39,431 nt of DNA from a virus: positions 1-39,431 of IMG/VR virus record IMGVR_UViG_3300025141_013063, one strand, 5' to 3'. A model generated the notes under the pieces. The model saw nothing but the letters and a program-made list of their open reading frames with translations. It did not search any database and was not told the origin of the DNA. Shown one piece after another: positions 2 through 39,153 of the stretch. How positions within the stretch are numbered: the first letter of the stretch is position 1; the number at the start of each line of letters is the position of its first letter. Made by a program: the position numbers and the translations under genes.

Positions 2-736
2 GCCGGACCATGTGTGATAGAATCAACAGACGTGTGTTTAGAAGTAGCAAAATATTGTAAATCTATTTGTGATGAGCATGGTTTTACATATGTCTTCAAA
101 GCTTCCTTCGATAAAGCAAACAGGACCTCAATAACCTCGTTTAGGGGGCCGGGCTTAGAACGATCAATAGACACATTCGTTGAAATAAGAAAGCATGTCG
201 ACTTTATAACCACCGATATACACGAACCTCATCAAGCAAAAGAGACAGCCCCATATGTTGATATACTACAGATACCCGCTTTTCTTTGCAGACAAACAGA
301 TTTGTTAGTTGCAGCAGGAGAAACAGATAAAATTGTTAACATTAAAAAAGCTCAGTTCTTATCTGTTGATAAAATGGAACATGCAGTTAAAAAAGTCTAC
401 AATACTGGTAATAAGAAAGTGATGTTGACAGAGCGAGGCTCTATGATGGGTATGGACGATTTAGTGGTAGATTTCAGAAATATACATAAGCTAAAACAAT
501 TTGGATGCCCAGTTGTTATGGATGTTACTCACGCATGTCAAACATACAAGCAAGCGAATGGTATAACTGGTGGAAATAGACTTTATGGCCCGCTCTTTGC
601 TCAGTGTGCTAAAATATTTGGCGCTGACGGTACCTTCGCAGAAGTTCACCCAAATCCAGAAGCAGCATTAAGTGATTCTGCAAATACTATGAACTTTAGT
701 ATGTTTGAGAACATGGTAAAATCACTAGCCACATAA
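2..736 (+). CDS. kdsA: 3-deoxy-D-manno-octulosonate 8-phosphate synthase (5'-partial), metal-dependent class
   Basis: The enzyme condenses phosphoenolpyruvate with arabinose 5-phosphate to give Kdo-8-phosphate, the precursor of the Kdo that links lipid A to the LPS core. The reading frame is open from base 2 and starts inside the conserved N-terminal motif AGPCVIES, so the true start lies upstream and only a short N-terminal strand is missing. An internal GTG at 14 is not the start. Family motifs follow in order: FKASFDKANR, RGPGLE, HEP, IPAFLCRQTDLL, DVTHAC and AEVHPNPE. The Cys of GPCVIES (visible residue 4), His177, Glu214 and Asp225 match the four metal ligands of the metallo-Kdo8P synthases (Aquifex type). 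The E. coli enzyme has Asn in place of that Cys. It is the first visible gene of the sugar cassette. In a phage it is an auxiliary metabolic gene that may support or alter host LPS. The closely related DAHP synthases are less likely because of the FKASFDKANR and RGPGLE motifs. Confidence 0.95.
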   Translation, partial: AGPCVIESTDVCLEVAKYCKSICDEHGFTYVFKASFDKANRTSITSFRGPGLERSIDTFVEIRKHVDFITTDIHEPHQAKETAPYVDILQIPAFLCRQTDLLVAAGETDKIVNIKKAQFLSVDKMEHAVKKVYNTGNKKVMLTERGSMMGMDDLVVDFRNIHKLKQFGCPVVMDVTHACQTYKQANGITGGNRLYGPLFAQCAKIFGADGTFAEVHPNPEAALSDSANTMNFSMFENMVKSLAT

Positions 737-754
737 TCCAAGAAGAGAGATAGC

Positions 755-1429
755 ATGATACAAATTCATAATGTGGGGTCACCCTACCAACTAGCCGAAA
801 AGATATTAGGTTTTTTTCAATCTTTGGAGATGAAAAATGGTTTCTTTCTAGAAGCCGGCTCAAGCAATGGCATATGGCAAAGTAATTCATATTATTTAGA
901 GAAGATTTTGGGCTGGACTGGGGCCCTTGTTGAGCCAAATAGGCAGATGTACGAGCATTGCACTGAAAATCGTAAAAATCCGAAGAATCATTTTTACAAT
1001 TGCGCTTTGGTGTCCAGTAGCTATGCGCTCGATTTCATAGAGGGATACTTTAATGAACAAGATTTTGAAAACATCATGATGGCTCAAATAGATGGCGTTA
1101 AACAATGCGCCGAAAGAAGCAAAAGATGGGACGGTAAACAGCCCGTGTCAGTTGCAGCTAAAACTCTTGGAAGTATCATGACCGCGGTTGGAAATAAAAT
1201 TGATTTTTTAAGTTTAGATGTTGAAGGGTATGAGCTTGAAGTATTAGATGGCTCCGATATACATATACATCGACCAAAGTATGTTTGTATAGAAGCATGG
1301 CCAGATGAAATAGTCGTAGGCCACGAGGAAAAAATCAAAGAATACTTCCTGCAAAGAGGATACAGGGTCAATCAATATCTCAGTGAAAGAGATATACTAT
1401 TTGAAGACTACGAAAAGGAAAAACAATGA
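755..1429 (+). CDS. FkbM family SAM-dependent methyltransferase
   Basis: This is a 224-residue protein of the FkbM methyltransferase family, which transfers methyl groups from S-adenosylmethionine, often to hydroxyls of sugars in polysaccharides. The SAM-binding motif I region is FLEAGSSNG (about residues 31-39), followed by a glycine/leucine-rich stretch ending in ALVEPN, the acidic end of strand 2. The family signature IDFLSLDVEGYELEVL lies near residues 149-164. The ATG at 755 is preceded by the purine-rich stretch AAGAAGAGAGAT. Its stop overlaps the next start by four bases (ATGA), which indicates translational coupling. Its place among sugar-nucleotide genes suggests that it caps or decorates a glycan, but its substrate cannot be read from the sequence. 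Confidence 0.88.
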   Translation: MIQIHNVGSPYQLAEKILGFFQSLEMKNGFFLEAGSSNGIWQSNSYYLEKILGWTGALVEPNRQMYEHCTENRKNPKNHFYNCALVSSSYALDFIEGYFNEQDFENIMMAQIDGVKQCAERSKRWDGKQPVSVAAKTLGSIMTAVGNKIDFLSLDVEGYELEVLDGSDIHIHRPKYVCIEAWPDEIVVGHEEKIKEYFLQRGYRVNQYLSERDILFEDYEKEKQ

Positions 1430-1728
1430 TTTACTATATCGACATAGATGAAACAATTTGCGATTATGAGGGCCCTAGAGAATATCCATTAGCGACCCCA
1501 ATTAAGAAGAATATTGAAAAAATCAACAAACTGTATGATGAGGGGCACACAATCATTTATTGGACCGCTCGTGGTACTGTTACGGGTCTTGATTGGTATG
1601 ACTTGACTGGCAGACAGCTAAAGGCCTGGGGCGCCAAACACCATTCATACAAGGTTGGCAAGCCCGCCTATGATGTTTTTATATGCGACAAGGCCATCAA
1701 TACGGAAGTTTTCTTTAAAGACGAATGA
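1426..1728 (+). CDS. small HAD-superfamily phosphatase, capsule-biosynthesis type
   Basis: This 100-residue protein carries the HAD nucleophile motif DIDET at residues 6-10 (Asp6 nucleophile, Asp8 acid/base). A motif II threonine sits in YWTARG, and a C-terminal lysine and aspartate region follows in VGKPAYDVFICDKA. There is no cap domain, so it resembles the short cap-less phosphatases found in capsule and LPS loci. It overlaps the methyltransferase before it and the fucose synthase after it by four bases each, so the three are probably translated together. It probably dephosphorylates a sugar phosphate. It is not clearly KdsC, whose motif I is normally DVDGVLTDG, so assigning it to Kdo-8-P would be a guess. 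Confidence 0.75.
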   Translation: MIYYIDIDETICDYEGPREYPLATPIKKNIEKINKLYDEGHTIIYWTARGTVTGLDWYDLTGRQLKAWGAKHHSYKVGKPAYDVFICDKAINTEVFFKDE

Positions 1729-2639
1729 CCAATAAGCTATTAGTAACCGGAGGATCGGGGATGGTAGGAGCCGCCCTTAGATCGATCAGACCCCAGGCAC
1801 AATATTTAACCAGGAAAGACTTTCATAGCAACTCCTATAATGCCCATGAAGGAAACATAATTCATCTTGCTGCGAAAGTTGGCGGCGTAAAAGCAAATAC
1901 TGACGAGATCGCTGAGTTTTACACAACAAATTCTATTATCAACCAAAAACTCCTCCATCAGGCATATCTTTCGCACGCAAACAAAGTTATATCTCTATTA
2001 TCTACTTGTGTATATCCCGACGCACCTTATGTCACATACCCTCTTACCGAAGACCAACTCCATCTTGGCCCCCCTCACGATTCCAATTTTGGGTACGCCT
2101 ATGCTAAGAGAATGGTAGATGTAATGTCGCGAGCCTATCGACAACAGTACGGGTGCAATTTTATAACGGCGATCCCAAATAATTTGTATGGCGAACACGA
2201 CAATTTTGATTTAGAAAATAGTCACGTGATTCCGGCTCTAATGCGTAAAATTTGGGAAGCCAAACTAGAATGCGCACCGTTTGTGGAATGTTGGGGAGAC
2301 GGAAGCGCCATACGGGAATTTACCTATTCGGAGGATATTGCAAGAATTCTGCTGTTCCTATTAGAGACATATGATGGTGCTGAGCCGATCAATATTGGAA
2401 ACACTGAAGAACATTCGATTAAAGAGGTGGCTGAAATACTGTGCGAACTGCTGGAGTATGAAGGCGAACTGATGTGGAATACACATATGCCAGGCGGCCA
2501 GCATAAAAAACCGAGCTCTAATGACAAACTTTTGAAACTGGGGTGGAGTGCCACAAACTATACTTCTTTAAAAGAAGGCTTAAGGAAAGTGTGTAAATGG
2601 TTTAAAATTAATTATCCAAATGTTAGAGGAATAAAATGA
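1725..2639 (+). CDS. fcl: GDP-L-fucose synthase (GDP-4-keto-6-deoxy-mannose epimerase/reductase)
   Basis: This 304-residue short-chain dehydrogenase/reductase epimerises and reduces GDP-4-keto-6-deoxymannose to GDP-L-fucose using NADPH. It shows the Rossmann motif VTGGSGMVG near residues 7-15, the family motif [16 protein letters not shown] around the catalytic serine and cysteine, and YAYAK with the catalytic tyrosine and lysine. [21 protein letters not shown] follows and contains the conserved histidine. GDP-mannose dehydratase, encoded just downstream with a four-base overlap, makes its substrate, so the pair forms a standard two-step GDP-fucose module. The length is close to the roughly 310-320 residues of bacterial homologues. 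The product would be a sugar donor for host surface glycans or for glycosylating phage proteins. Confidence 0.92.
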
Positions 2640-3610
2640 AAACAGCTTTGATTACTGGGATAACCGGACAAGATGGTTCTTACTTGGCTGAATTTTTATT
2701 GGCTAAGGGCTATAAAGTTATTGGTATTAAAAGGAGAACTTCTCTAATCAACACCAGCCGTGTTGATGAGTTTTACAATCATGTTAATTTTAAATTAGAA
2801 TATGGGAACCTTCATGATACTGGGCGCTTTTGGCAACTTTTGCACCACTATAGACCAGATGAAATTTATAATTTGGGCGCCCAGTCCCATGTCCGTGTGT
2901 CTTTTGATGTACCGGAGGAAACTGTAGACTCTATTGCAATGGGTACCCTGCGCCTAATGAACGCCTATAAACAGATGTGCCCTGAGGCCCGGTTCTATCA
3001 GGCGTCTTCGTCTGAAATGTACGGGGACAATCCTGTGGTACCATTTACCGAAGAATCCTTAATGACTCCGGCATCACCGTATGCTTGTGCCAAGTTATTT
3101 GCACACAATTTAATGAGAAATTATAGAGAGGCCTATAATTTGCATGCTTCTAGTGGTATCCTATTCAATCATGAATCGCCTCGGCGAGGAGAAACCTTTG
3201 TGACGCGAAAAATTACTATGGCTGCAGCTCGCATTCGGCTTGGTTTGCAAGATAAGCTATATCTTGGGAATTTAGATGCCCGAAGAGATTGGGGCTTCGC
3301 CGGCGACTATGTGGAAGCAATGTGGCTTATGCTCCAACAAGAGAGGCCTGATGATTATGTGATTGCTACAGGTCAGTCTCATACGGTTCGAGAGTTTCTG
3401 GATTGTGTCTTTCGTTATGCTGACCTTGGTAGTTATGAAGATTTTGTACATATTGATGCTCGATACCTGAGACCCCACGAGGTTCCGTTCTTGCTCGGCG
3501 ACGCGTCTAAAGCAAAAGAAAAATTGAATTGGACGCCCCGAGTGTCTTTTGAAGAGCTTGCTCACATGATGTATGATGCAGACTTAGTGGAGGCCAAAAA
3601 AGATGTCTAA
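2636..3610 (+). CDS. gmd: GDP-mannose 4,6-dehydratase
   Basis: This 324-residue NADP-dependent enzyme converts GDP-D-mannose to GDP-4-keto-6-deoxy-D-mannose. Diagnostic motifs are [13 protein letters not shown] at the N-terminus, [13 protein letters not shown], the catalytic SSSEMYG, and PYACAK with the catalytic Tyr and Lys (Cys replaces the usual Val). [18 protein letters not shown] and [20 protein letters not shown] follow; both are essentially invariant in this family. It is slightly shorter than the usual 340-370 residues and appears trimmed at the C-terminus. It overlaps the fucose synthase by four bases and the next epimerase by eight. GDP-mannose would have to come from the host or from genes outside this window. 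Confidence 0.95.
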
Positions 3611-4469
3611 ATGCTTGGTTACGGGCCACCTAGGCTATATTGGGTCCAAAGTGTATGCTCGCCTCCAAGAACTGGGGCACGAAGTATTGGGGATAGACTA
3701 CAAGGATGATCCAAGACAAGATGTTTCTCTTCTTTTAAAGGAAGATACAGACGGGTTGTTTCACCCTCTTTATTTGGGCTTTGCGCCGGAGTATATTTTT
3801 CATTTGGCATGCATCCCCCGCGTAGAGTATTCAGTCGAAAAGCCGGTCGCGACGATGGTGAATAATGTAATACAGACTTCACATTTGTTAAACTTTGCGA
3901 GAAAAGTTGGAGCAAAAAGAGTTATATACTCTGGATCTTCTTCTGTGATAGGGAATGGCGCGGGCCCCGAAAGCCCCTACGGACTTCAAAAGCTTATCTC
4001 GGAGATGGAATGTGAACTTTACGCAAAACTTTACGGAGTCGATACCGTGACGCTGAGATACTTTAATGTTTATTCTCCGTGTCAAAAGGCCGACGGCCCT
4101 TATACAACCGCGGTGGCAAACTGGATGCATTCTATTAGAGAAGGGGTTGATCCATTTATCACGGGCACCGGCGAGCAACGCCGAGACATGGCCCACCTTG
4201 AAGATGTTGTGGCAGCAAATATTTTTGCTATGGAGTATGAAACAAATTTCGAGGGCGAACACTATGATATTGGAACCGGTACCAATATTTCACTGAATCA
4301 GATTAAAGAAATCGTAGAAAAGCATCACCCAGGTGTTAAGTTTGAATACCGCAGCGAACGCACAGGCGATGTTCTAACAACCAAAGCAGATATATCCCCA
4401 CTAAAAATTCTTGGCTGGGAGCCGGCCATAGGAATTCAGGCGGGGATAGAAGAATGTTTTATATTTTAA
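3603..4469 (+). CDS. NAD-dependent sugar-nucleotide epimerase/dehydratase
   Basis: This 288-residue extended short-chain dehydrogenase has the nucleotide-binding motif TGHLGYIGS at residues 8-16, [11 protein letters not shown], a serine-rich strand ending in SGSSSVIG, and PYGLQK with the catalytic Tyr and Lys. RYFNVYSP and a C-terminal [11 protein letters not shown] segment match UDP-glucose 4-epimerase-like and related sugar epimerases. The substrate cannot be set from sequence; a UDP-hexose or an intermediate of the GDP-deoxymannose branch are both possible. The start overlaps the dehydratase stop by eight bases. It is the last gene of the glycan cassette, and a strong ribosome binding site for an unrelated small gene follows ten bases later. 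Confidence 0.85.
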
Positions 4470-5119: not shown

Positions 5120-5470
5120 ATGATTTATATATTATTAACAATTTCGATATTCTTAAATATCTTTTTAGCATGGTACGTAGTAAAAATATTAAGGAAATTT
5201 GTATTTATATCTGAAAATCTATCTGACCTGTTTCTCGTGACAAAAGCATTTCAGGTGTTTGTAAAAAATCTATATAGCATGGACAGCTATCATGGAGAGC
5301 CCATGATACAAGAAATGGTTATGAGGATTACTGAAGTTGGCCTTGAAATAGAAAATTTTAGAAGCATCTTTGAGTCTACGTTAGATGCCGAAATGGAGGA
5401 AGAATTAAATGCCGCGGAGAAAGAGATCGAAAACCCGGAAGAAAAACCATTATTTTACGAAAGTCCATGA
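5120..5470 (+). CDS. membrane-anchored protein with acidic cytoplasmic tail
   Basis: This is a 116-residue protein with one hydrophobic segment at residues 2-22 (starting IYILLTISIFLN), followed by basic residues KILRK, so the bulk of the protein is predicted to be cytoplasmic. The remainder is helical and the last 30 residues are strongly acidic. Its final 62 bases overlap the start of the sigma factor gene in another frame. No family name can be given. Possible roles include superinfection interference or tethering of phage factors to the inner membrane, neither of them supported directly. Confidence 0.68.
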   Translation: MIYILLTISIFLNIFLAWYVVKILRKFVFISENLSDLFLVTKAFQVFVKNLYSMDSYHGEPMIQEMVMRITEVGLEIENFRSIFESTLDAEMEEELNAAEKEIENPEEKPLFYESP

Positions 5471-6107
5471 AGATGCAATAGTAAAGTACGCTAACACAGA
5501 CGATATCCAACTTCGAGGCGCCTTATATGTTGAATACATTCAGCCGGCCTTTGACCAAATGGTTGATAAAATTATATATACTTATCGTTTTACGACACTA
5601 CCAAATATTGATTATTTAAAAGCTGATTGTAAAGTTTGGCTTACAACCATACTAAACAAATATGATCCAAACAAGGGATCAAAAGCTTTCTCATATTTTT
5701 CTGTTGTAACCAAAAATTGGTTTATCCATAAAGTTAAACAAACGCAAAAACGCAATAGAACCGAAGTCTTCATGGAAGACATAATTAATGAGTTAGAAGA
5801 AAATCTCATTTCCCCCGAACCAACCTATCTTCAAAGAAGACAAGAATTTGAATTTTGGAGATCTTTAGGAAACGAGATGGATACGTGGGATTCTTTTATG
5901 CTTAAAGAAAATGAGAAAAAAGTTTTAATGGCAGTACGAATTCTGCTCGACTCTGCCGATACCATAGAAATTTTTAATAAAAAAGCTATTTACTTATACC
6001 TGAGGGAGATCACAGGTCTGAATACCAAACAAGTAGTTAATAATTTAAACAAATTACGAAAAAGATATAGGACCTTTAAAAACAAATGGCAAAGCGGCGA
6101 GATCTAA
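5409..6107 (+). CDS. late-transcription sigma factor, T4 gp55-like
   Basis: This is a 232-residue protein with the sigma-70 region 2-like core seen in T4-type gp55. The stretch IDYLKADCKVWLTTILNKYD is followed by SKAFSYFSVVTKNWFIHKVK, where FSYFSVVTKNWFI is the sigma region 2 helix that binds core polymerase and -10 DNA. A C-terminal helix-turn-helix-like segment follows (YLREITGLNTKQVVNNLNKL). In T4 the protein directs host RNA polymerase to late promoters together with gp33 and the gp45 clamp. The ATG at 5409 is preceded by GGAGGAAG. The start lies 62 bases inside the upstream gene and gives a strongly basic N-terminus (MPRRKRSKTRKK). It precedes the large virion operon that it would be expected to switch on. 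Confidence 0.85.
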   Translation: MPRRKRSKTRKKNHYFTKVHEDAIVKYANTDDIQLRGALYVEYIQPAFDQMVDKIIYTYRFTTLPNIDYLKADCKVWLTTILNKYDPNKGSKAFSYFSVVTKNWFIHKVKQTQKRNRTEVFMEDIINELEENLISPEPTYLQRRQEFEFWRSLGNEMDTWDSFMLKENEKKVLMAVRILLDSADTIEIFNKKAIYLYLREITGLNTKQVVNNLNKLRKRYRTFKNKWQSGEI

Positions 6108-6394
6108 AATTAGAAGAATATGTAGAGGAAACTACAAAGAACATTAGAGAAGACCGGGCCATGGCCAAGAGTCTGCTAATGGATGTTATGGCTGATATGA
6201 AGGCCTCCTCCGCCGAACGCAGAGAGATGGGCCCCATCGCCGCCAAGTTTGTAGAAAATCTTCAGAGGTCAAACGAGCAGATGGTGAAGTTGGCATCTAT
6301 TCTGCAAAGACAAAAGACTTCAAATGTAGGCTTATCATCTGACGACAAAGAGCAGCTGTTTGATCTTTTAAACGAAGGGTCTTCAGATGGGTAG
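6086..6394 (+). CDS. small helical protein following the sigma factor, unknown
   Basis: This is a 102-residue, highly charged and almost fully helical protein. Notable stretches are EDRAMAKSLLMDVMADMKAS and GPIAAKFVENLQRSNEQMVK, with an acidic C-terminal patch SSDDKEQLFDLLNEGSSDG. It overlaps the gp55-like gene by 22 bases and the hub gene by eight, so it is tightly coupled to both. Size and position would fit a gp33-type late co-activator, whose acidic hydrophobic C-terminus binds the sliding clamp, and the ending LFDLLNEG is at least reminiscent of that. A baseplate or terminase-related small protein is also possible. The function is not established. Confidence 0.6.
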   Translation: MAKRRDLKLEEYVEETTKNIREDRAMAKSLLMDVMADMKASSAERREMGPIAAKFVENLQRSNEQMVKLASILQRQKTSNVGLSSDDKEQLFDLLNEGSSDG

Positions 6395-7889
6395 GAAGAA
6401 GAAGGAAGAAAAGAAGCCATTAGGGATGGAAGCCGTTGCCTCCGACTACGGAGCCCTTAATGATTTACAAGTTTCACAAAATTCGCCCACTGCTGACCGT
6501 CGCACACTCACAACGACAAATGCAATTGCTACCGTAGTCGGAAACTACTATACTCCGGATGTTCTAAAAGATAAAGATGAATTCTTGGGGGTAGTTTTAG
6601 CAAGTTTGCCGTCGCAGGTTGCTCGGTTAAGTTCAAAAACTCAACAGATAGAAGCGAAGTCTGTTGAACTCAAGACCGGCCGCCGCGGCAACCCGCTATA
6701 CTATACATATAAAGTGTATATACCGGAGTTAGAATCTAGATGTTTAGACTTTAATGGAAAAACTACCAGCAGAGCACGCGGCGAACTAGGTCCTTTGTCG
6801 ATGGCCCAGCGCATTGCAACTATGCAGGACTTTTCATTAGATGTCTCTTTGTATAATGCTTCCGAAGGCCTCAGGGCCATCCAGCCTGGCACCCTTGTTA
6901 AAATTGTGTTTGAAGATTTAGCCACCATGCGCGGCCCAAAGATAGTTGAGATCTTCAAAAAAGTCTTTCAATTTCAAGCTACTGGAACTACGGAAAGTAA
7001 TGTGAACCGCTTTAACTCACAGCCTCCATCGATGCCCGGAAAGACCGACGGCGAAGGAAAGAATGAGTTTTTTTGGTCTGCCGGCAAGAGAGCCTATACT
7101 ACAACATATGTGGCCTCGAACGGGAAAGATCATATCGAGGTGACCAATGGTTATCTTGAGGATGTAACCGACTCCGATGGAAAGAGCATAATAGCAGCGG
7201 TTGAAGGTACCCCCAAATTGAAGCTGATTGTACAGGCTCACCAAGACTGGAAAAATCTTAAAGCGGCGTACTCTAAAAGGTTTCCCGATGCAAAGGAACT
7301 CGGAGTATCCGGTGGCTATAGGAACTATTCTGGTCAGGTCACACAACGACTCAAACGAATAAAATGCGGCCCTAGTAGCAGAACAGAGACAGCTCCAGTC
7401 GATCCTAAAACAAAAACAGCCCTTGCAGATCTCAAGACCCAGCGCGTAACGGCGGGAACCCGTATCCCTATAGGCGGAGTATGCCAAGAGGGTGGACCAG
7501 CCGGTATCCCCGGCACGAGCAGACATGGCTGGGGAATATCGATCGACCTCGACCGGTCCAGCTACTACAGACCCAGCGGCACCCCCGGCACCAGGTCGCG
7601 ACAAAATATTGCTTTTCGATGGCTTAATAAATATGCTATAAAGTATAATTGGATATTTGATGTGGGCTACCCGGAGACATGGCACCTATCATGGACTAAG
7701 GCTGCTGAGGCATTCAGTGGCAAAAACTCCCCCAGCAATCTTACGGCAGCCAATCGAAAGTATAAATTGGCCAACGACGGAATCACAGAAGACACCACAC
7801 ATGCATATTATATCGCTGAGCACGCACCAGAACCTGAGGTAGCAGAAGCACCACCAGATGAAACTCCCGACGAGCCAGCCGCGACCTAA
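6387..7889 (+). CDS. baseplate hub / tail-tip protein with M15 (VanY-like) peptidase domain
   Basis: This is a 500-residue protein. The N-terminal part (about residues 60-200) has beta-rich segments such as LYYTYKVYIPELESRCLDF and resembles the gp5 OB-fold region of T4-like hub proteins. From about residue 278 there is a zinc peptidase domain of the M15 / D-Ala-D-Ala carboxypeptidase type. It contains VSGGYRNYSGQ, SRHGWGISIDLD (His380 and Asp387 as zinc ligands) and ETWHLSW (Glu430 as base, His433 as third ligand). A proline- and acid-rich tail ends the protein. In T4 the same position in gp5 carries a lysozyme; here a peptidase would cleave peptidoglycan stem peptides during genome delivery. 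It is followed by a spike-like protein, which supports a hub role. The M15 call is firm, while the gp5 correspondence is inferred. Confidence 0.82.
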   Translation: MGRKKKEEKKPLGMEAVASDYGALNDLQVSQNSPTADRRTLTTTNAIATVVGNYYTPDVLKDKDEFLGVVLASLPSQVARLSSKTQQIEAKSVELKTGRRGNPLYYTYKVYIPELESRCLDFNGKTTSRARGELGPLSMAQRIATMQDFSLDVSLYNASEGLRAIQPGTLVKIVFEDLATMRGPKIVEIFKKVFQFQATGTTESNVNRFNSQPPSMPGKTDGEGKNEFFWSAGKRAYTTTYVASNGKDHIEVTNGYLEDVTDSDGKSIIAAVEGTPKLKLIVQAHQDWKNLKAAYSKRFPDAKELGVSGGYRNYSGQVTQRLKRIKCGPSSRTETAPVDPKTKTALADLKTQRVTAGTRIPIGGVCQEGGPAGIPGTSRHGWGISIDLDRSSYYRPSGTPGTRSRQNIAFRWLNKYAIKYNWIFDVGYPETWHLSWTKAAEAFSGKNSPSNLTAANRKYKLANDGITEDTTHAYYIAEHAPEPEVAEAPPDETPDEPAAT

Positions 7890-7916
7890 AATGATTGGTA
7901 TTAAGAGGTAAAGACA

Positions 7917-8921
7917 TTGAAAACAAAACATAAATTAGCAGATCCCGAAACAACAAATTCCGAAGCTGGCATTAATACGGCCGCCCTCCCTGAAGAAGAG
8001 CAGACTCTTTTAGAAGGCGCCACTGTGGACGAAGAAGCTTCTATTTTGGGCCAAGGCGGACAAGACACATCAGATTGGGACGCCCCGGCTTTAATATTAT
8101 CCCCTAGCGACAAGCTTATACGAAAAGGCAATGCGGGAATCAGAATCGGCAAAGACCGAGACGGCGCCCGTACTTCTGGAGAAGGAGGCGCCGGCACCTC
8201 AAGATGTGCAGCAATTGATATCGTCGCTGGTCACCTGGGTTGGTTAGCCAAAAAAAGAAACAAAAGAGGGAAGACACTGTTCGTAGATCCAGATTTCAGA
8301 GTAGATGCTGCAAGGATCTACATAAGCCAGAAATCAGATGTCGATGGATATTTTGACCTGGCGCCCGGAAAAGTAGGAAGCACAAGCATCGCGGATCTCC
8401 GTTCTACGGTCGCCATAAAGGCGGATACAGTTCGCATCATTGGTCGCGAGAATATTAAGTTAGTTACACGCACTGACCAGCATAATTCTCAAGGAGGCGC
8501 GACCGATAATAGATATACAAAAAAATATGGCATCGACTTGATTGCTATGAATGATGACAAGGACATGCAACCACTTGTTAAGGGAGATAATTTGAGAGAG
8601 TGTTTGGTGGGTATAGTGGGTATAATTCAGACTATAAACAATACTTTGGGAAACTTTTTTGAGTATGACGCCCAGTTCAAGGCGGCCGTTCGAAAGCATA
8701 ATCATATTTCTCCTTTTTTTGGCTACGAAGGCGCGCCAGACTTTAAAGAAGTAATGGCCAAAGGGATAGAAACATCGATAAAAACCTGTTTGAATGTTAA
8801 TGTGCCCCAAATGCTCGATCAACCAATGGAACTAGCAAGCATTGAGAGCGCGTTCCTCGCAGGCGAAGGAGGGATTGTAGGGGAGAAATATATTTTAAGC
8901 CGCTACAACTCTACCAACTAG
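7917..8921 (+). CDS. baseplate spike-like structural protein
   Basis: This is a 334-residue protein. The TTG at 7917 is the likely start because AAGAGGT precedes it and no ATG in frame is available; an ATG at 7891 opens only a six-codon dead-end frame. Residues 1-70 are acidic and disordered-looking. The middle has short beta strands (ADLRSTVAIKADTVRIIGRE, IKLVTRTD) of the kind found in gp5/VgrG-like spike beta-helices. The C-terminal third is helical (LVGIVGIIQTINNTLGNFF). It follows the peptidase-bearing hub protein, so the two may share the hub and spike role that T4 gp5 carries as one chain. Its function is inferred from position and composition only. Confidence 0.6.
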   Translation: MKTKHKLADPETTNSEAGINTAALPEEEQTLLEGATVDEEASILGQGGQDTSDWDAPALILSPSDKLIRKGNAGIRIGKDRDGARTSGEGGAGTSRCAAIDIVAGHLGWLAKKRNKRGKTLFVDPDFRVDAARIYISQKSDVDGYFDLAPGKVGSTSIADLRSTVAIKADTVRIIGRENIKLVTRTDQHNSQGGATDNRYTKKYGIDLIAMNDDKDMQPLVKGDNLRECLVGIVGIIQTINNTLGNFFEYDAQFKAAVRKHNHISPFFGYEGAPDFKEVMAKGIETSIKTCLNVNVPQMLDQPMELASIESAFLAGEGGIVGEKYILSRYNSTN

Positions 8922-8928
8922 GAATACT

Positions 8929-11900
8929 ATGTCACTAAGCCCACCAGGATTTGAAGCCCTAACCTTTCAAAATAAACTAAAGTCAGGCAACCCTAAAATA
9001 CCCTTTGCCGATCCTCCATATGGAATGTCCGCGGAAGGACAACAGACTTCTTATGCGGTCTTCTTTAAAACCAATCAGATAAAATCAGAGGCTGAAGCTG
9101 CTGCGAGCACCGAGTTCAAAACGCGAGCATCGCGCAAGTTTGTAATGCACTACTTCCCCGAGTATTATCCTTTTATGGTCGACCGCAACAAAGTCACAGA
9201 TGAAGACTGGGCAGAAGTAGAATCATACAAGCAAGATTATTTGGATTTGCTAAGTGATATTGAAGCCTCGATCGAGGTAAAATCGCTACATAAAAAACCA
9301 AACCCGGTAAAAAACAAAGTGGTATATACTACTGATGTGGATTTATATGGAAAAAGAAACGAAAAAGATGGGCTTGATGAAAATGGCAAACCCCTCCTCC
9401 CCGACCCAGAAATCTTTCTGAGCGTTTTAAATAACGAACTTGGAAGAGGTGCCACAGATTCAACGGTGTCAGTAAAGTTCCAAAACATTCCAACACAAAT
9501 GGATCAGCTGACGAATACTCTTTCTAATTTTGGGACCCTAATGAACCAGATGCAACAGCGAGAAGGCGATTCTAATATGAACTCCCTAAGCGCCGGAGCT
9601 AACAAAATCATCAGGAAGATTACCGATTCTGTTCACGACTCTATCGATTTCCGCTCCCAACGACAGGGATTCCACGACACAGATTATTTTACAGTCTCTT
9701 TTGATGACGAAACAAGAATTGTGGGCATAGAGTATTTTGTTGTTGCGGCGACTGCCGGAGAGAAACTTCAATCTACGGTTGGGTATATAACCAACGTTAA
9801 GTACAATCCTCTTTTCAACGATAAAGTACCACTACAGCTGTTGAAAAATTATCGATATATTTTAGATCAGGCTAACCAGGACCCAACCAACTTAAATCAA
9901 TTGGATCACCTAGCCTTCATAGAGAGACTGGGAATCCCCGGGGACTCGTCAGGGTGGGGAGAACCGATGCCATGGGGTCAGGAGCCCATAGAAGAAAATG
10001 ATTATGGGAACCTGCAGAAAGCGCTGGATGAAGCGAATTGCGAAAACCCTAAAGACCCAGAAAAAATATTAAAAATACAAGCAATGCTAGATGATCCAAT
10101 ATTTAAAGCAAAAATGCTGCAGGCCCAAAAGGCCAAAAAGATCAATACGGCCGTTCAAGTTTTGGACGTAATAGGCGATATTGCTGAAATGGATGTGTCT
10201 AATTTTATGAATGCCACGCCGGAAGGAAGAAAAGCAAATCAGGTATTAGAAGCCTTTGGTATTACAGATCTAGCAAAGGAGGCCATAATGTGTCTTACTC
10301 GGGGGATGATGGGCGAAGACTCCCCGATTGCCAGTATTACAGATACTGTTAAGGACGCGATTCTCAACAGTACGGTGTCCTTGAACGGACCCCCGACGCC
10401 CCCGTCACTTCAGCCTTCTTTTAAGCGCCCCTCATTCGCGGATTTCCTCCCGGATGTTTATTTTTCTATAACCGGGGATCCCCCTCTTTCCGAGCGCATT
10501 AAAGAAATGCTTCTGAGCACGATTACACAAGCCGGCTTTGAAATTATTAAAGGCATCGCCGAGATCTTTAAATATAACTGCGGCGACATCTTAAACGGAA
10601 ACCCTGGCGAAGTTGATTGTGGTGGTGAGCTGGAAAGACGCAACCGAATCGCCGCGATTAATATTCCGGATCTTGAAGATACAATTGCTCAAGCTGCAGG
10701 ATCTTATGGACTAACACCCCCGCGCGCATACGCCTATATGACAGATGTGTCAGAAATTCTGAATCCGATTGAAATATGTCAGTTGCTCAACTCACCCAGA
10801 CAACTTACAAACGATACCATTGACAATATATTGGACTTTAATTCTGAATACTACTCAGTAGAGGTGCAGACAAACTTAAACAGTGGAACCCGGGTCGTGA
10901 GCTTCTTTCGATCAATGAGTTCAAACATTGATACTGTAAGTTTTTGCAACGAGGTAATAGAAGACACTATATTGGCAAATGTTGAAAGTTGTAAGGTTTG
11001 CTTCGATGGGTTCCAGGCCTATCCGGCCATAGAAACCTTGGCGCAGATCGCTGAACACGGCTTTGAACCAGTAATTCCTCCCCCCGATTTTTTGTGTCAG
11101 GACTCAGAATCATACCTTTCCAATCCTATTGCAGAGGTTATAATACCAAGATTGTTCAATGATGTGATGGAAAATACCCAGATATACCTCGCAGGATCAC
11201 TGGAAAGCGCCCGCACGTCGCTGCTTGAACCTATCGTAACCGCGACAGTTAACCCACAGGTCTGCGGCGCCCTTGACTCCGTTGGCCTTTGCCCCGGCGC
11301 TGACCCACCGACGATAGATACAAAAGCCCTTGAGTTTATTTCCGGACTTTTTGATTTTATAGCGGACCTGGCCAATCAAATACCGCCTGCCCCCGGCTGC
11401 GCGGATATTGACGATGAAAAGTTCCAAGAGGTTTTTGATGTCATTGAAGTTGTAGCCGATGCTATCTCAACCCTCTTGGCTGAAATGCCAGATCTTATCA
11501 GTGGTGTCCAGGACAAAATCAACTCTACCAAAGCAAATCTCGACTCCGGATCCGCCGGCGGGATCCCTCACACTGAATATCAATTCCCTCAGCAGTTTTC
11601 CGACGATTTCGTTTCTGCCATTGCCGGCCCTATGATATCGATAGATGGGAACAACTTCGTTGGCCAGACCATCGGCCCTTCCTCTGGCTCCACCGGTCCC
11701 GCCCGGGCGAAGAGAAGCATCCTTACTTCAGGTGTTGACCTGCCCGGTGGAGCCTTCGGCTATTCTAAAACAAGCATCAATCTGATGTTTGGCGGCAACA
11801 ACTCAGCCAAAATTGTCTATTCGGCGTATGATGAACCTCACACTTTTAAAGGGGTGACAGTGCAATATTCTATTCCAAAAGTCCATATTCCGAATTCTGA

Positions 11901-13827
11901 AACTGATGATATGGCAGCTCCTTTATACCGAGGGCATCTTGGAACAGAATGGCAGCAGACTAGTTTAAATCCTTATATTTATAGGTTTGTGGGCCCTCTT
12001 CTCCCGCAGTTCGACCCGGCAGCGGCCCCAGATATCGACGGCGAAGAAGCTAATGAACTAATTGGCCGTCATCATGTATGGGCCTATAGTGATGTAATGA
12101 GATCCACTTTCGAATACATTATCGATAATGGAGCATTTAGTCAAGATATTATTAATAATCTTAAGTTGTTCAAAAATAACAAGAACTGCACTCCTGAAAA
12201 TATTGGAGATCTTTTTGATGCTGACGGTATCATAGACCAAATGAGAAAAGAATTTGCCGCTGCAGCATGCCACGATAGTGGCTCCAATCAAGATAAGGTC
12301 CGCGGCACCCTCTACTTTGGGCTGATTAATATGTTGATACAGGCAATTATTGATGAATTCCTTGTAAGCAATATAATAATTTTTAGTGCTCTAAACATGG
12401 AGGACATATTAGATCCCAGATACCCCTTCCGAGAAGTAATGATCAGCTATGTGGTTTCTTCTTTTAATAGAATTATATTAGACGGGAACTCCATTGTAGA
12501 ACGAGAGATATATAATTACTTCGCACGCGTCGCTGGGCGCCCAAGTGTTGAGTTTGCGGGTGGTTTTACACACTCTTACGCGCCTACGGAAGTGGTACTG
12601 GGGTTTGAGGGATCATCGTTTCCTTTGAACAACGAAGATTTAGTAAGGTTTATGGTGGAAGAAAGACTTGGCTATTCGTGGCATGACCAGGGGACTGAGA
12701 CTCATCGATCAACCTTGCAGGCAATTAAAAATGTTATAGATCCTGCCGGCAATAAAAAATTGTTTGATGATTTCTTTGTGGGGGATGTGGTACAAGTTTT
12801 AGACTCTCAAGCAGCTATTGACAGTTTTTGGGCCCTCCGGACCACCGGGCGAGCCGACCCAGACTCATCTGAGAAAGCTATCGTATTTTATGGCCACGAG
12901 ACGGACTACACGTCTTTGATGTATGCCGTCTCCCAGGCGGAGGCATATGAAATATTTAGAGTCGACCACGCGGCCAACCTTTCTCGCAATGGCCGAATTG
13001 GTGCTATTAAGCAATCCGTCGACTATAATTTATTCTTTAATCAGGCTATCAACAAGAATGCTTGTTTATCAGTGGCTGTATTATACAACTTTTATTTGGT
13101 TGGAAGGCATTTGTCCGATGTGGCATCTTCGTTTGATTCAACCAAGCGCGCAATAATTCATATGTTTAATATGACGGAGCGCTCAGAATCACAGCCAGCA
13201 CTAGAACCACGAAGTGATGAATTTGTAAACTCATTGGCCAAGGACGGCGGCCTGGATATGGAGGGGATGGCCAGGGATATTATCCTTAAGTTCCTTCGAG
13301 AAACGCCCATACAAATTCTTAAGGGCCTTGCGGAGCTCATTGATCCACATGTTGCGCTGTCGAAGATGATAAAGAACTTCACTGGTGCTGCCTTTAATGA
13401 ACTCTTCAAAGGATTTCAAGCCGGCTTGGACTCCGGCGCTCTGCCAGGATCTGCAGAGCTCAAAGATAAAGGGATTACAGCTGAAGATATATTTGCGGTT
13501 ATCTTCTGTTTATATAATATAGTTCAGAGCGCGGCCGGCCCGATCCAGCAACTCGCCGACAGCCCAGCGAACCAGGTCGGGGCGGATATCCTTGACAATG
13601 TTTTACTTGGGCCTAGGCTAACTTTAGATGGTGTTGATTTTAAAGGAAGTATTGCTGGAATGTTTATGCTCCCCCCCTCGCCGCTTGGCGTTATATATCT
13701 TCTTCTTGAGATGTTAATGCTCTCGATCCCTGACGGCCTAACAGAAGGAGACGATGCGGTGACAGACGCCACGGAGCCAGAGACGGTGGAATGTCCGGAG
13801 GGCACCACACCCATCGAATTGGTATAG
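8929..13827 (+). CDS. very large virion structural protein, unknown (baseplate region)
   Basis: This is a 1632-residue protein starting at an ATG preceded by AGGA (8920-8923). I recognise no family. The first 250 residues are mixed and contain SHAPED-like beta and helical segments such as TQMDQLTNTLSNFGTLMNQM. Residues 450-800 are helical with scattered cysteines (CGDILNGNPGEVDCGG and CKVCFDG). The centre (about 860-1010) is glycine, serine and proline rich. The C-terminus has hydrophobic stretches (MFMLPPSPLGVIYLLLEML) and an acidic end. The hub, gp25 and gp6 neighbours imply a baseplate or tail component. A tape-measure role is possible given its size, but proline and cysteine content and the distance from any sheath or tube gene argue against it. 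Confidence 0.6.
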   Translation: MSLSPPGFEALTFQNKLKSGNPKIPFADPPYGMSAEGQQTSYAVFFKTNQIKSEAEAAASTEFKTRASRKFVMHYFPEYYPFMVDRNKVTDEDWAEVESYKQDYLDLLSDIEASIEVKSLHKKPNPVKNKVVYTTDVDLYGKRNEKDGLDENGKPLLPDPEIFLSVLNNELGRGATDSTVSVKFQNIPTQMDQLTNTLSNFGTLMNQMQQREGDSNMNSLSAGANKIIRKITDSVHDSIDFRSQRQGFHDTDYFTVSFDDETRIVGIEYFVVAATAGEKLQSTVGYITNVKYNPLFNDKVPLQLLKNYRYILDQANQDPTNLNQLDHLAFIERLGIPGDSSGWGEPMPWGQEPIEENDYGNLQKALDEANCENPKDPEKILKIQAMLDDPIFKAKMLQAQKAKKINTAVQVLDVIGDIAEMDVSNFMNATPEGRKANQVLEAFGITDLAKEAIMCLTRGMMGEDSPIASITDTVKDAILNSTVSLNGPPTPPSLQPSFKRPSFADFLPDVYFSITGDPPLSERIKEMLLSTITQAGFEIIKGIAEIFKYNCGDILNGNPGEVDCGGELERRNRIAAINIPDLEDTIAQAAGSYGLTPPRAYAYMTDVSEILNPIEICQLLNSPRQLTNDTIDNILDFNSEYYSVEVQTNLNSGTRVVSFFRSMSSNIDTVSFCNEVIEDTILANVESCKVCFDGFQAYPAIETLAQIAEHGFEPVIPPPDFLCQDSESYLSNPIAEVIIPRLFNDVMENTQIYLAGSLESARTSLLEPIVTATVNPQVCGALDSVGLCPGADPPTIDTKALEFISGLFDFIADLANQIPPAPGCADIDDEKFQEVFDVIEVVADAISTLLAEMPDLISGVQDKINSTKANLDSGSAGGIPHTEYQFPQQFSDDFVSAIAGPMISIDGNNFVGQTIGPSSGSTGPARAKRSILTSGVDLPGGAFGYSKTSINLMFGGNNSAKIVYSAYDEPHTFKGVTVQYSIPKVHIPNSETDDMAAPLYRGHLGTEWQQTSLNPYIYRFVGPLLPQFDPAAAPDIDGEEANELIGRHHVWAYSDVMRSTFEYIIDNGAFSQDIINNLKLFKNNKNCTPENIGDLFDADGIIDQMRKEFAAAACHDSGSNQDKVRGTLYFGLINMLIQAIIDEFLVSNIIIFSALNMEDILDPRYPFREVMISYVVSSFNRIILDGNSIVEREIYNYFARVAGRPSVEFAGGFTHSYAPTEVVLGFEGSSFPLNNEDLVRFMVEERLGYSWHDQGTETHRSTLQAIKNVIDPAGNKKLFDDFFVGDVVQVLDSQAAIDSFWALRTTGRADPDSSEKAIVFYGHETDYTSLMYAVSQAEAYEIFRVDHAANLSRNGRIGAIKQSVDYNLFFNQAINKNACLSVAVLYNFYLVGRHLSDVASSFDSTKRAIIHMFNMTERSESQPALEPRSDEFVNSLAKDGGLDMEGMARDIILKFLRETPIQILKGLAELIDPHVALSKMIKNFTGAAFNELFKGFQAGLDSGALPGSAELKDKGITAEDIFAVIFCLYNIVQSAAGPIQQLADSPANQVGADILDNVLLGPRLTLDGVDFKGSIAGMFMLPPSPLGVIYLLLEMLMLSIPDGLTEGDDAVTDATEPETVECPEGTTPIELV

Positions 13828-13886
13828 ATAATCTTTAAGAGCTAAAAAACAATAGATAATTCTAATTATTGGGAGGTGATCTAAAA
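13828..13886 (+). promoter_or_regulatory. AT-rich spacer with inverted repeat and near-perfect Shine-Dalgarno before gp25
   Basis: This 59-base gap is the longest in the structural module. It is strongly AT-rich. It holds the inverted repeat ATAATTCTAATTAT (13856-13869) and GGAGGTGATC (13872-13881), which matches ten bases of the complement of the 16S rRNA 3' end, five bases before the ATG at 13887. The Shine-Dalgarno fixes the gp25 start and suggests strong initiation. The AT-rich stretch could hold a promoter, but no exact TATAAATA late element is present. Confidence 0.35.
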
Positions 13887-14288
13887 ATGTCTTCAGGAAT
13901 TGCAGCTAAACTTCCCCTTACAATAAGCAACACGTTTGGGGCCTATAATTTAATAACAGATTTTAAGACCTTAGCAACACAAAATTTAAAAATGCTCGTT
14001 TTAACAGCTCCTGGCGAAAAAATGATGGATATAAAATTTGGAGTTGGTTTGCGTCAATATTTATTTGAGCAAAATGATGCCACGGTATATTCTCGAATAG
14101 ATGAAAAAATTAGGCAACAGGTAGCAACTTACTTGCCTTATATACAAATTAAGAGTATAGAATTTGATGTACCCGAAGATATGCCTGATTTTTATCCTCA
14201 CACCATAAATGTAATATTGAGGTTTAGGATAGTGCCACTTCAGACAAATGCTGTTTTAAACCTTGAGGTTGATTCAAACACAAACTAA
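13887..14288 (+). CDS. baseplate wedge protein, gp25 family
   Basis: This is a 133-residue protein of the GPW/gp25 family, the small wedge component that in T4 ties the wedge to the sheath and hub. The characteristic block LKMLVLTAPGEKMMDIKFGVGLRQYLFE (residues 32-59) matches the gp25 lysozyme-like fold core, and IEFDVPEDMPDFYPHTINVI follows. The frame is open six codons further upstream, to a TTG at 13869, but the GGAGGTGATC ribosome binding site puts the start at 13887. It precedes the gp6 wedge gene, as gp25-gp6 modules usually do. The overall length is typical of the family. Confidence 0.92.
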   Translation: MSSGIAAKLPLTISNTFGAYNLITDFKTLATQNLKMLVLTAPGEKMMDIKFGVGLRQYLFEQNDATVYSRIDEKIRQQVATYLPYIQIKSIEFDVPEDMPDFYPHTINVILRFRIVPLQTNAVLNLEVDSNTN

Positions 14289-14307: not shown

Positions 14308-16095
14308 ATGAAAAACTTACCAATCAAATATACCAGTCGAGACTTTGAATCAATCAGAAGAGATTTAGAGAATTTTGCAAAACGCTATTATCCCGATAGC
14401 TATAAAGATTTTAATCGAGCCTCGTTTGGGTCTTTGATGTTGGACACGGTTTCCTATGTCGGCGATATTCTATCATTTTATCTTGATTATCAAGTAAACG
14501 AAAGCTTTTTGGAAACAGCTGTAGAATACAACAATGTTTGGAAGCTAGCCCGCCAACTAGGCTATCGGGTTCAAACCAGCCCAGCGTCTTATGGGATGTT
14601 AACATTTTATGTTGAAATTCCTGCCACCACTACAGGCTTGGGCCCTGACCCAGAACTCAGCCCGGTTTTGCTCGCTGGTTCAACCTTTTCCTCCAACGGC
14701 GGCGGTTTTTATACACTATTAGAAGATGTCGACTTTTCTAAACAAAATAACCAGGTTGTGGTGGGTACTGCCGAACCATCTACGGGAACCCCTCTTACTT
14801 ATGTAGTCCGCGCGCAAGGGAGAACCGTTTCAGGAAGAGGCACTACACAGCAATTCACAGTAGGTAACTTTGTGAGGTTCCGGCGCCTTAATTTGAATAT
14901 CTCAAATATTAGCGATGTTATAAGCGTTGTTGATGGAGAAGGAAACAAATATTTTGAAGTTGACAATCTTTCACAGAACATAATCTACAAGTCAATCACA
15001 AACACCACAGATTCTAGAGCTACTGTCCCAAATATTTTAAAGGCAGTTCCTGTTGCTCGTCGATATGTGGTGGAAACAATCAATGGCCAGACCTTCTTAC
15101 AGTTTGGATATGGTTCGGATTCAACAGAACTGTCGAACCCAGTCGTGGACCCTAAAAATGTTTTATTACAACTAAACGGCCGCGATTATATAACAGAAAT
15201 CGATTTTGATCCCACAAAACTTATAAGTACAGATAAATTTGGTATAGGTCCGTCAAACACAACCTTAACTGTCTCATATAGATTTAATACCACACGGGAT
15301 GTGAATGCAGCTGTTGATACAATAACCAAAGTTGAAAATCCACAACTTAAATTTGCAGCACAGGGGTCATTATCTCTTTCGGGCCGCCAAAATGTTCTCG
15401 CTTCTCTAGAAGTGACAAATGAAGAAGCTTTTGTCGGAAGCGTAAAACTTCCCTCCTCTGAAGAGATCAAACAGAGGGCATTTAGTTACTTTGCTACACA
15501 AAATCGTGCTGTGACAGCCACAGATTACCAGGCTCTGTGCTATGCGATGCCGGAAAGATTTGGCATGTTAAAAAGAGTGGCAGTCTCCAAAGACAGCGAT
15601 GAATTTAAAAAGAACGTAAACATATATGTTATTTCTGAGGACCAAACACAGAAACTCACCACAGCAAACAGCTCTCTTAAATTAAATTTAAAGAGATGGC
15701 TATCACAATATAAAATGATAAGTGATACCGTGGACATCTTAGATGCTGAAATCATAAATTTTGGTATTGAGTACGAGGTTATGATAGACAATACCGTAAA
15801 TCGATTTGATGTGGTAAGCCAGTGCAACGCCAGTCTTTCCGTGGCATTCGGTGAGCAGTTAGACATTGGAGAGCCAATCTCGGTTACTGATATTTATAAA
15901 CAGCTTCAAAAAGTTCCCGGAGTTATTGATGTAACATCAGTTGAGGTGTCTTTGAAATCCGGCGGCCTTTATTCTGAATCAAATTATAGTTTTGAGTCAG
16001 CACTATCTTCTGATGGTCGTAGGATATTGGGAGAAAAAAATACTATTTTTGAATTAAAATATCCCAATATCGACATCAAGGGATCTGTTAAATAA
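14308..16095 (+). CDS. baseplate wedge protein, gp6 family
   Basis: This is a 595-residue wedge protein of the gp6 type, which dimerises to form the iris-like ring that drives baseplate opening. The N-terminus is diagnostic of marine T4-like gp6: YTSRDFESIRRDLENFAKRY, DFNRASFGSLMLDTVSYVGD and FYLDYQVNESFLETA. The centre has the beta-rich ring domain, and the C-terminal half includes AVTATDYQALCYAMP, which is conserved with baseplate J-like proteins. The ATG at 14308 follows an AGGA motif about ten bases upstream. It is shorter than T4 gp6 (660 residues), as in marine relatives. Its stop overlaps the next start by one base (TAATG). Confidence 0.92.
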   Translation: MKNLPIKYTSRDFESIRRDLENFAKRYYPDSYKDFNRASFGSLMLDTVSYVGDILSFYLDYQVNESFLETAVEYNNVWKLARQLGYRVQTSPASYGMLTFYVEIPATTTGLGPDPELSPVLLAGSTFSSNGGGFYTLLEDVDFSKQNNQVVVGTAEPSTGTPLTYVVRAQGRTVSGRGTTQQFTVGNFVRFRRLNLNISNISDVISVVDGEGNKYFEVDNLSQNIIYKSITNTTDSRATVPNILKAVPVARRYVVETINGQTFLQFGYGSDSTELSNPVVDPKNVLLQLNGRDYITEIDFDPTKLISTDKFGIGPSNTTLTVSYRFNTTRDVNAAVDTITKVENPQLKFAAQGSLSLSGRQNVLASLEVTNEEAFVGSVKLPSSEEIKQRAFSYFATQNRAVTATDYQALCYAMPERFGMLKRVAVSKDSDEFKKNVNIYVISEDQTQKLTTANSSLKLNLKRWLSQYKMISDTVDILDAEIINFGIEYEVMIDNTVNRFDVVSQCNASLSVAFGEQLDIGEPISVTDIYKQLQKVPGVIDVTSVEVSLKSGGLYSESNYSFESALSSDGRRILGEKNTIFELKYPNIDIKGSVK

Positions 16096-38619: not shown

Positions 38620-39153
38620 ATGATCCTAGGACTTGACATATCAACCAGCATAACTGGCTATACAATATTGGACCACGGAGGCAAGATCCTCGCATGCGAC
38701 CACATTGACTTACGAAAAGAAAAGAACTTCTTCAAGAAAATACAAATCGTATGTGATCGTCTGGAATCGTTGGACGATACATATAGTATAGAACAGGTAT
38801 ATGTTGAACAATCTCTCCAATCCTTTCGCTCTGGCTTCTCATCAGCACAAACCTTATCGCTTTTGTCAAAAATAAATGGCATTGTTTCGTGGTTGTGTTA
38901 TAATATGTTTTACGGCGAACCCAAGTATCTCGCCGCCACCTCTGCCCGCAAGTTATGCGGCATCAAAGTTCCCAAGGGCCAGAAAGCAAAAAAGGTTTCG
39001 TTGCAGTTTGTTGTTGACAACGTGCCTGGGTTTGAGGTAGAATACACTAGACATGGAAATCCTAAGGCTGGTTATGCTGACCGGTCCGATAGCTATGTGA
39101 TCGCAAAGGCAGGCTGGATCCGTGAAAGAGAAGAAGCTAAAGATACTGACTAA
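38620..39153 (+). CDS. RuvC-like Holliday junction resolvase
   Basis: This is a 177-residue nuclease of the RNase H-like RuvC superfamily that would cleave four-way DNA junctions during recombination and before packaging. The active-site acids are Asp6 in GLDISTSITG, Glu63 in VEQS and an Asp154/Asp157 pair in YADRSDSYVIAKAG. This order and spacing match RuvC-type resolvases. T4 itself uses the unrelated endonuclease VII (gp49) for this step. The start at 38620 has a weak ribosome binding site, and the gene ends inside the primase gene, overlapping it by 32 bases. It marks the change from virion genes to replication genes. Confidence 0.85.
   Translation: MILGLDISTSITGYTILDHGGKILACDHIDLRKEKNFFKKIQIVCDRLESLDDTYSIEQVYVEQSLQSFRSGFSSAQTLSLLSKINGIVSWLCYNMFYGEPKYLAATSARKLCGIKVPKGQKAKKVSLQFVVDNVPGFEVEYTRHGNPKAGYADRSDSYVIAKAGWIREREEAKDTD

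Follow-up and report, generated by a model that had tools for sequence, protein, structure and literature searches.

In phage T4 a cleavage separates the lysozyme of the gp5 protein from its spike, which is shed before the lysozyme does its work (PMC3004832). The hub protein gp15 of the cyanophage A-1(L) carries a peptidase domain, and the purified domain was reported to be active on host cells (PMC10966104). Among the Rak2-like phages, CBB_240 joins an N-terminal OB domain of the gp5 type to a lysozyme and possibly to an M23 peptidase (PMC5259590). The specialized ("evolved") VgrG proteins of type VI secretion carry variable C-terminal enzymes, and both homotrimers and heterotrimers with different effectors have been discussed (PMC10433429). 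The wall hydrolases of the tail tip are usually described phage by phage, whereas the lineage analyzed here keeps the structural part of the hub and exchanges the enzyme, in places among phages with spikes that are about 90% identical.

We analyzed a viral locus in which one ORF joins a putative OB domain to an M15 peptidase domain and is followed by a separate spike-like gene. The window, i.e., the whole stretch of DNA that was analyzed, is a 39.4-kb fragment. Our main reading, to which we give a probability of about 0.75, is that the product of this ORF is the central hub, similar to gp5, of a T4-like phage with a contractile tail; the spike is split off as a separate protein, and the hub carries an enzyme module that can be exchanged and is an M15 peptidase in the window.

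Gene order of the locus and its relatives

The hub ORF occupies a slot between a gp33-like gene of ~100 aa and the spike gene. The features of the locus, all on the + strand, are the following:

5409..6107, +, gp55-like late sigma factor gene, which anchors the slot on its upstream side (match to phrog_234, late sigma transcription factor, E 0.001)
6086..6394, +, ~100-aa gene directly 5′ of the slot, gp33-like by position only
6387..7889, +, putative hub protein with an N-terminal OB domain, a linker and an M15 peptidase domain
6558..6971, +, predicted OB-fold domain, residues 58-195 (AlphaFold2, VIA-align, Foldseek)
7221..7706, +, M15 (VanY-type) peptidase domain, residues 279-440 (Pfam VanY and the slot M15 HMM)
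7524..7526, +, His380, predicted zinc ligand (kept in 22/22)
7545..7547, +, Asp387, predicted zinc ligand (kept in 22/22)
7674..7676, +, Glu430, predicted catalytic base (E in 16 and D in 6 of 22)
7683..7685, +, His433, predicted zinc ligand (21/22, one gap)
7903..7908, +, AAGAGG, Shine-Dalgarno-like, 8 bases 5′ of the TTG start of the spike gene (sequence reading)
7917..8921, +, spike-like protein, a separate gene, with a helical N-terminus, a beta-rich middle and long C-terminal helices
8697..8705, +, HNH, an HxH motif, spike residues 261-263 (both His kept in 75/75)
8929..13827, +, 1632-aa protein between the spike and gp25 (same position in relatives)
13869..14288, +, gp25 baseplate wedge (PF04965, E 2.6e-11)
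14308..16095, +, gp6 baseplate wedge (phrog_219, E 8.8e-25)

Because gp25 and gp6 lie downstream, the hub ORF is placed among baseplate genes. The gp6 of the window is ~31-32% identical to the gp6 of Microcystis phage Mel-JY01 and of Flavobacterium phage immuto. In the relatives the position of the gp55-like late sigma gene is unchanged, and the position and length of the gp33-like gene, for which Pfam and PHROG searches gave no informative family, are kept as well.

The relatives were reached only through the neighboring gp6 and spike genes. Searches with these two genes gave first 15 and then at least 476 candidate IMG/VR stretches, the latter encoding the spike; 80 loci were retrieved from the second search. 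A scan of viral contigs with the hub protein alone found no relatives, and tblastn of the hub, the spike and two relatives' proteins against 50,697 GenBank phage records gave no match. One to three ORFs occupy the slot in the relatives examined, where the hub gene lies directly 5′ of the spike gene. With near-duplicates included, one slot ORF of at least 200 aa was counted in 57 loci, two in 12 and three in 5; the slot ORFs range from 278 to 1564 aa in length. A scan of genome contigs gave L121 (JAUVQD010000088.1), a 6.3-kb contig from an actinomycete MAG bin with the same order of sigma, gp33-like, hub and spike genes. It is probably a phage contig, and a single short match of this kind neither identifies the host nor proves by binning a link to an actinomycete.

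The 1632-aa protein encoded at 8929-13827 had no match in Pfam, PHROG or NCBIfam; its counterparts in complete relatives are 1801 to 3205 aa long, and the protein is a possible partner of the hub or the tail tip. A LysM-like stretch was seen by eye in the L018 counterpart, and a weak SH3_3 match was found in that of L015. Other genes of the window were recorded in passing. The 3144-aa protein at 17638-27072 contains two Laminin_G_3 (concanavalin A-like lectin) stretches and is a candidate receptor- or glycan-binding baseplate protein. The region 14-4469, 5′ of the baseplate cluster, holds what by eye are sugar-nucleotide or surface-polysaccharide-like genes (a KdsA-like fragment, a GDP-mannose dehydratase-like gene and epimerases), and other genes of the surface-polysaccharide type occupy the equivalent place in L005. 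After the tail genes, 38620-39153 encodes a RuvC-like resolvase (PF02075, E 0.0024, below the cut-off).

The M15 domain of the hub ORF

The original prediction described ORF 6387-7889 as a hub protein in which the active-site residues of an M15 peptidase are intact. The ORF (+ strand) starts at ATG and encodes 500 aa, and H380, D387, E430 and H433 were all found at the positions that had been named. The M15 (VanY-type) pattern SxHxxGxxxD ... E/DxxH is present, and the spacing in SRHGWGISID...ETWH is typical of M15. VanY (PF02557) matches residues 374-435 with an E of 3.5e-5 and 24.1 bits, just below the gathering cut-off of 25, which is passed by relatives' proteins from the same slot. The slot M15 HMM matches residues 279-440 with an E of 6e-30, a value favored by the seeding of this HMM partly on the window itself, and a profile of 8 slot M15 domains matches solved D,D-carboxypeptidases (5hnm, E 5e-8). 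In the 22 slot M15 domains, which were gathered with the partly window-seeded HMM so that conservation is somewhat favored by the search, H380 and D387 are invariant, position 430 is E in 16 and D in 6, and 21 domains have H433, the remaining one showing a gap there. Despite this bias we judge from the alignment that the conservation of these residues is more than chance, and the M15 enzyme of the window hub looks intact.

No lysozyme was matched in the Pfam search of the window protein, which has VanY instead, as had been predicted. The formula of an M15 domain in place of the lysozyme holds for the window and proved too narrow for the lineage, some members of which carry a lysozyme or a muramidase. 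With the whole hub, phmmer gave no match to PDB sequences, and in the AlphaFold2 model of the whole hub the M15 part is poor and only the OB region is usable. A tape-measure family, phrog_16823, matches the hub with an E of 1.3e-6 at residues 253-442 only, i.e., in the peptidase half; this match was taken as a shared peptidase domain, and a tape-measure identity of the hub was set aside.

The predicted N-terminal OB domain

The N-terminal OB-fold that the original prediction expected is supported by structure prediction, in which residues 58-195 model as an OB domain with modest confidence (Z 6.8-7.6). The AlphaFold2 model was built from a 13-row alignment and had overall a mean pLDDT of 46.9 and a pTM of 0.31; its better-scored part contains five strands within residues 66-192, with pLDDT blocks of ~55-80 in the strands. 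The best Foldseek matches were all uS12 ribosomal proteins with E values of 0.026 and above, none of which passes 0.001; uS12 is a textbook OB-fold protein. With VIA-align, residues 58-195 matched the cyanophage A-1(L) baseplate chain 8kea_D (Z 7.6), Mu 9ki1_V (Z 7.2), VgrS (Z 7.0) and P2 gpV (3qr8, Z 6.8). Since all these Z values are below 8 and the OB-fold is a common fold, the comparison supports the fold and does not prove the family alone: in the model, residues 58-195 appear to resemble the OB domains of contractile-tail spikes.

Profile comparisons were also made. The family phrog_430, "baseplate hub subunit and tail lysozyme", matches with its profile positions 36-101 the OB region of one relative, G002 (E 0.015, or 1.3e-4 per genome), and gave no match with the window's own hub. 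When T4 gp5 was compared with the OB profile, hhalign gave a probability of 1%, so that homology was not established, and a profile of the hub N-termini returned only chance matches from the PDB sequences.

The separate spike-like gene

The window hub has no C-terminal spike in the same chain. The spike is encoded by its own gene (7917-8921), which has a TTG start codon and the sequence AAGAGG eight bases in front of it, and its product is 31-43% identical to 13 spikes of relatives in the alignment. The monomer model is beta-rich at residues 66-210, with low confidence; Foldseek with this model gave no meaningful match, and the spike profile had no match among PDB sequences. On reading the sequences, no OB part was seen in the spikes. 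Two distant relatives, L024 and L025, carry an OB-like N-terminus and spike homology in one protein, although hhalign of the OB profile against these N-termini gave a probability of 33% (E 5e-4), with which homology is not established. Because both parts occur together in these proteins, the gene that follows the hub gene may hold the part that is fused to gp5 elsewhere, in line with the original prediction.

The spikes share in addition an HxH motif, with H261 and H263 kept in 75/75 aligned sequences. HxH motifs bind iron in the spikes of P2 gpV, phi92 and R2 pyocin (PMC6116203). In the low-confidence model of the window spike the motif sits between predicted helices and not at the tip of a beta-helix, so that by analogy a role in a metal-binding spike tip is a lead.

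Exchange of the enzyme module

Nearly all slot ORFs have the same N-terminus, the OB part of ~200 aa, and they differ in their C-terminal enzymes; the few that lack it include the second ORF of L013, the second of L052 and L021. About ten unrelated kinds of envelope-cutting enzyme were found at this one gene position in related uncultured phages: M15, M23, amidase, DUF2272, CHAP, muramidase, lysozyme, transglycosylase, GH19 and SGNH esterase. In 79 of the slot proteins Pfam detected VanY (17), Amidase_2 (11), GDSL_2 (7), Muramidase (6), Peptidase_M15_4 (6), DUF2272 (5), M23 (3), SLT (3), Phage_lysozyme (3), Phage_lysozyme2 (2), CHAP (1) and GH19 (1). The hubs L018:7991-9769 and L019:8123-9814 share a C-terminal part with no Pfam match, whose sequence suggests a large glycosidase-like domain. 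The shortest OB-hub found, L023:8823-9761 (312 aa), has no recognized enzyme and may be a cargo-free hub.

The exchange is observed between close relatives. L055, L056 and L057 have spikes that are 88-94% identical and OB domains that are 76-91% identical, and no BLAST similarity was found among their C-terminal parts, which are an Amidase_2 in L056, a DUF2272 in L057 and, in L055, a domain that by eye resembles a transglycosylase. The supported group of three to which the window belongs combines M15 (window), an SLT-like (L041) and a lysozyme-like enzyme (L083). On a tree of 61 spikes, the 50 labeled tips, with 19 cargo labels, required 27 changes, compared with a mean of 33.0 (31-34) for shuffled labels, where L055 and L061 were labeled by eye and the count of states is inflated by combined labels. 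By this measure the cargo follows descent only weakly. With its many unrelated kinds of enzyme, the slot looks like a swap site for the tools that phages use to break into cells. Sequence comparison can then ask how often phages change the bond that they cut at entry, and whether such changes track the wall chemistry of their hosts. The set of slot proteins is also a source of many hydrolase domains, presumably virion-associated, with a common natural fusion point.

Tandem hub genes

Two OB-hub genes are present in L063, L068, L075, L078 and L084, and three, with different cargoes, in L090, L093 and L095; no locus of the sample has more than three. An OB HMM built from single-ORF loci finds the tandem ORFs that were left out of its building, with E values of 1e-12 to 4e-50. 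Within a tandem locus the OB parts of these paralogues are 46-71% identical and the cargoes are unrelated, as in L093 (Amidase_2, DUF2272 and M15), L068 (M23 and Amidase_2) and L078 (a GDSL esterase and a muramidase-like domain).

Contractile tails have a trimeric central hub, and hence a mixed hub trimer is possible. We tentatively suggest, as an idea that may well turn out otherwise, that the hub of L090, L093 and L095 would be a heterotrimer with a different hydrolase on each subunit round one spike, that the single-gene members would have homotrimers, and that the cargo would be swapped by recombination. If this were true, a single virion would attack several wall bonds at once. Instead of forming a mixed trimer, the subunits could be used in different virions or be placed peripherally. 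The tandem hubs raise the structural question of whether a threefold puncturing device can be made from different subunits.

Proposed role and alternative readings

In the reading that we prefer, the hub would be part of the virion and would form a trimer, the three N-terminal OB domains of which would lie beneath the tail tube and grip the spike trimer made from the other gene (7917-8921), in a way similar to that in which T4 gp5* holds the cleaved gp5C, while the C-terminal M15 metallopeptidase would hang on a linker beside the spike. Upon tail contraction the spike would pierce the outer membrane, and we infer that the M15 domains would then act as endopeptidases that cut stem or cross-link peptides of the peptidoglycan, so that the tube could pass. 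In the lineage, unrelated envelope hydrolases take the place of the enzyme module while the OB domain stays, and duplication of the hub gene can give one phage two or three OB hubs, each with its own kind of enzyme.

The cutting of peptide bonds in a way that opens the wall is the weakest step of this mechanism, because a carboxypeptidase would not open it. Many VanY-type M15 enzymes are carboxypeptidases and would be unable to open the sacculus on their own, and hence the endopeptidase activity of the window M15 is an assumption. The domain could mainly bind or trim peptidoglycan as a carboxypeptidase and open no passage, with entry left to another enzyme or to physical force. That the closest solved relatives are D,D-carboxypeptidases speaks for such a role, as does the presence of SGNH-esterase cargo in the slot, which shows that opening the sacculus is not required of each cargo. 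However, the slot often carries true wall-bond cutters (amidase, muramidase, M23, lysozyme), so that its selected function is probably wall breaching, and we consider a mere trimming role unlikely. A further point against our main reading is that another muralytic enzyme of the virion may lie elsewhere in the genome, outside the fragment.

The place of the protein in the particle could also be a different one. If the ORF encoded an OB-fold adaptor at the baseplate periphery or tail tip, the central spike would be formed by the 7917 protein alone or together with the giant 8929 protein. OB folds are generic, no gp27-like partner was identified, and up to three OB paralogues per phage would be easy to fit on a periphery. 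This arrangement seems to us rather improbable nonetheless, since in the relatives examined the spike gene comes immediately after the hub gene, the spikes of the lineage show no OB part of their own, unlike those of P2, Mu and A-1(L), and in L024 and L025 an OB-like N-terminus is followed by the spike within one fused protein. M15 domains are frequent in phage endolysins, and the ORF might on this ground be a soluble endolysin or other non-virion lysin that lies in the baseplate cluster by chance. We give this very little credence, given that nearly all slot ORFs have a conserved OB N-terminus of ~200 aa that is unrelated to known endolysins, that the slot is fixed between the late-transcription genes and the spike, and that the N-terminus persists when one enzyme class is swapped for another. 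A gp5-like hub that is split from its spike and carries an exchangeable enzyme remains our preferred reading.

Comparison with known systems

The gene order of Mel-JY01 and immuto is as in the window up to gp25 and gp6, whereas their hub position is taken by a single gene (503 and 378 aa, respectively) that by eye apparently has OB-like and spike parts and in which no enzyme was found by Pfam; in Mel-JY01 the gene after it is annotated as a putative chitinase. The OB profile gave an hhalign probability of 0.1% against Mel-JY01, immuto and LR756508, and homology was not established. CBB_240 is much longer than T4 gp5 and comes from jumbo enterobacterial phages in which several enzymes are joined in a single protein, and for the Rak2-like phages, unlike the window lineage, no exchange slot or tandem OB-hub genes have been reported. 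A-1(L) distributes the parts in another way: its enzymes are inserted in a barrel-containing hub and the OB-fold belongs to its spike (A-1(L) gp25), whereas in the window the enzyme is fused to the OB domain and the spike is separate. A baseplate chain of A-1(L), 8kea_D, is among the best structural matches of the window OB domain. In VgrG the gp27-like part, the OB domain and the spike form one chain with the effector after the spike, whereas the window encodes the spike separately and has the enzyme directly behind the OB domain. Peptidases on phage hubs are thus already known, whereas in the open-access literature we found no description of a gp5 that is split in this way and has an exchange slot, nor of OB hubs encoded in tandem in phages.

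T4 gp5 offers a close parallel in layout, since it has, as is predicted for the window, an OB domain followed by a wall hydrolase beside the spike, in a baseplate gene neighborhood (PMC3004832). It differs in that a T4-type lysozyme and the spike are encoded in one gene, whereas the window has an M15 peptidase and a separate spike without a clear VXGXXXXX repeat array, and no sequence similarity between T4 gp5 and the window hub is detectable. As gp5C is cut off after translation, the mature parts of T4 correspond to the two chains of the window, and by analogy the split genes would supply at once the separate parts that T4 obtains by cleavage.
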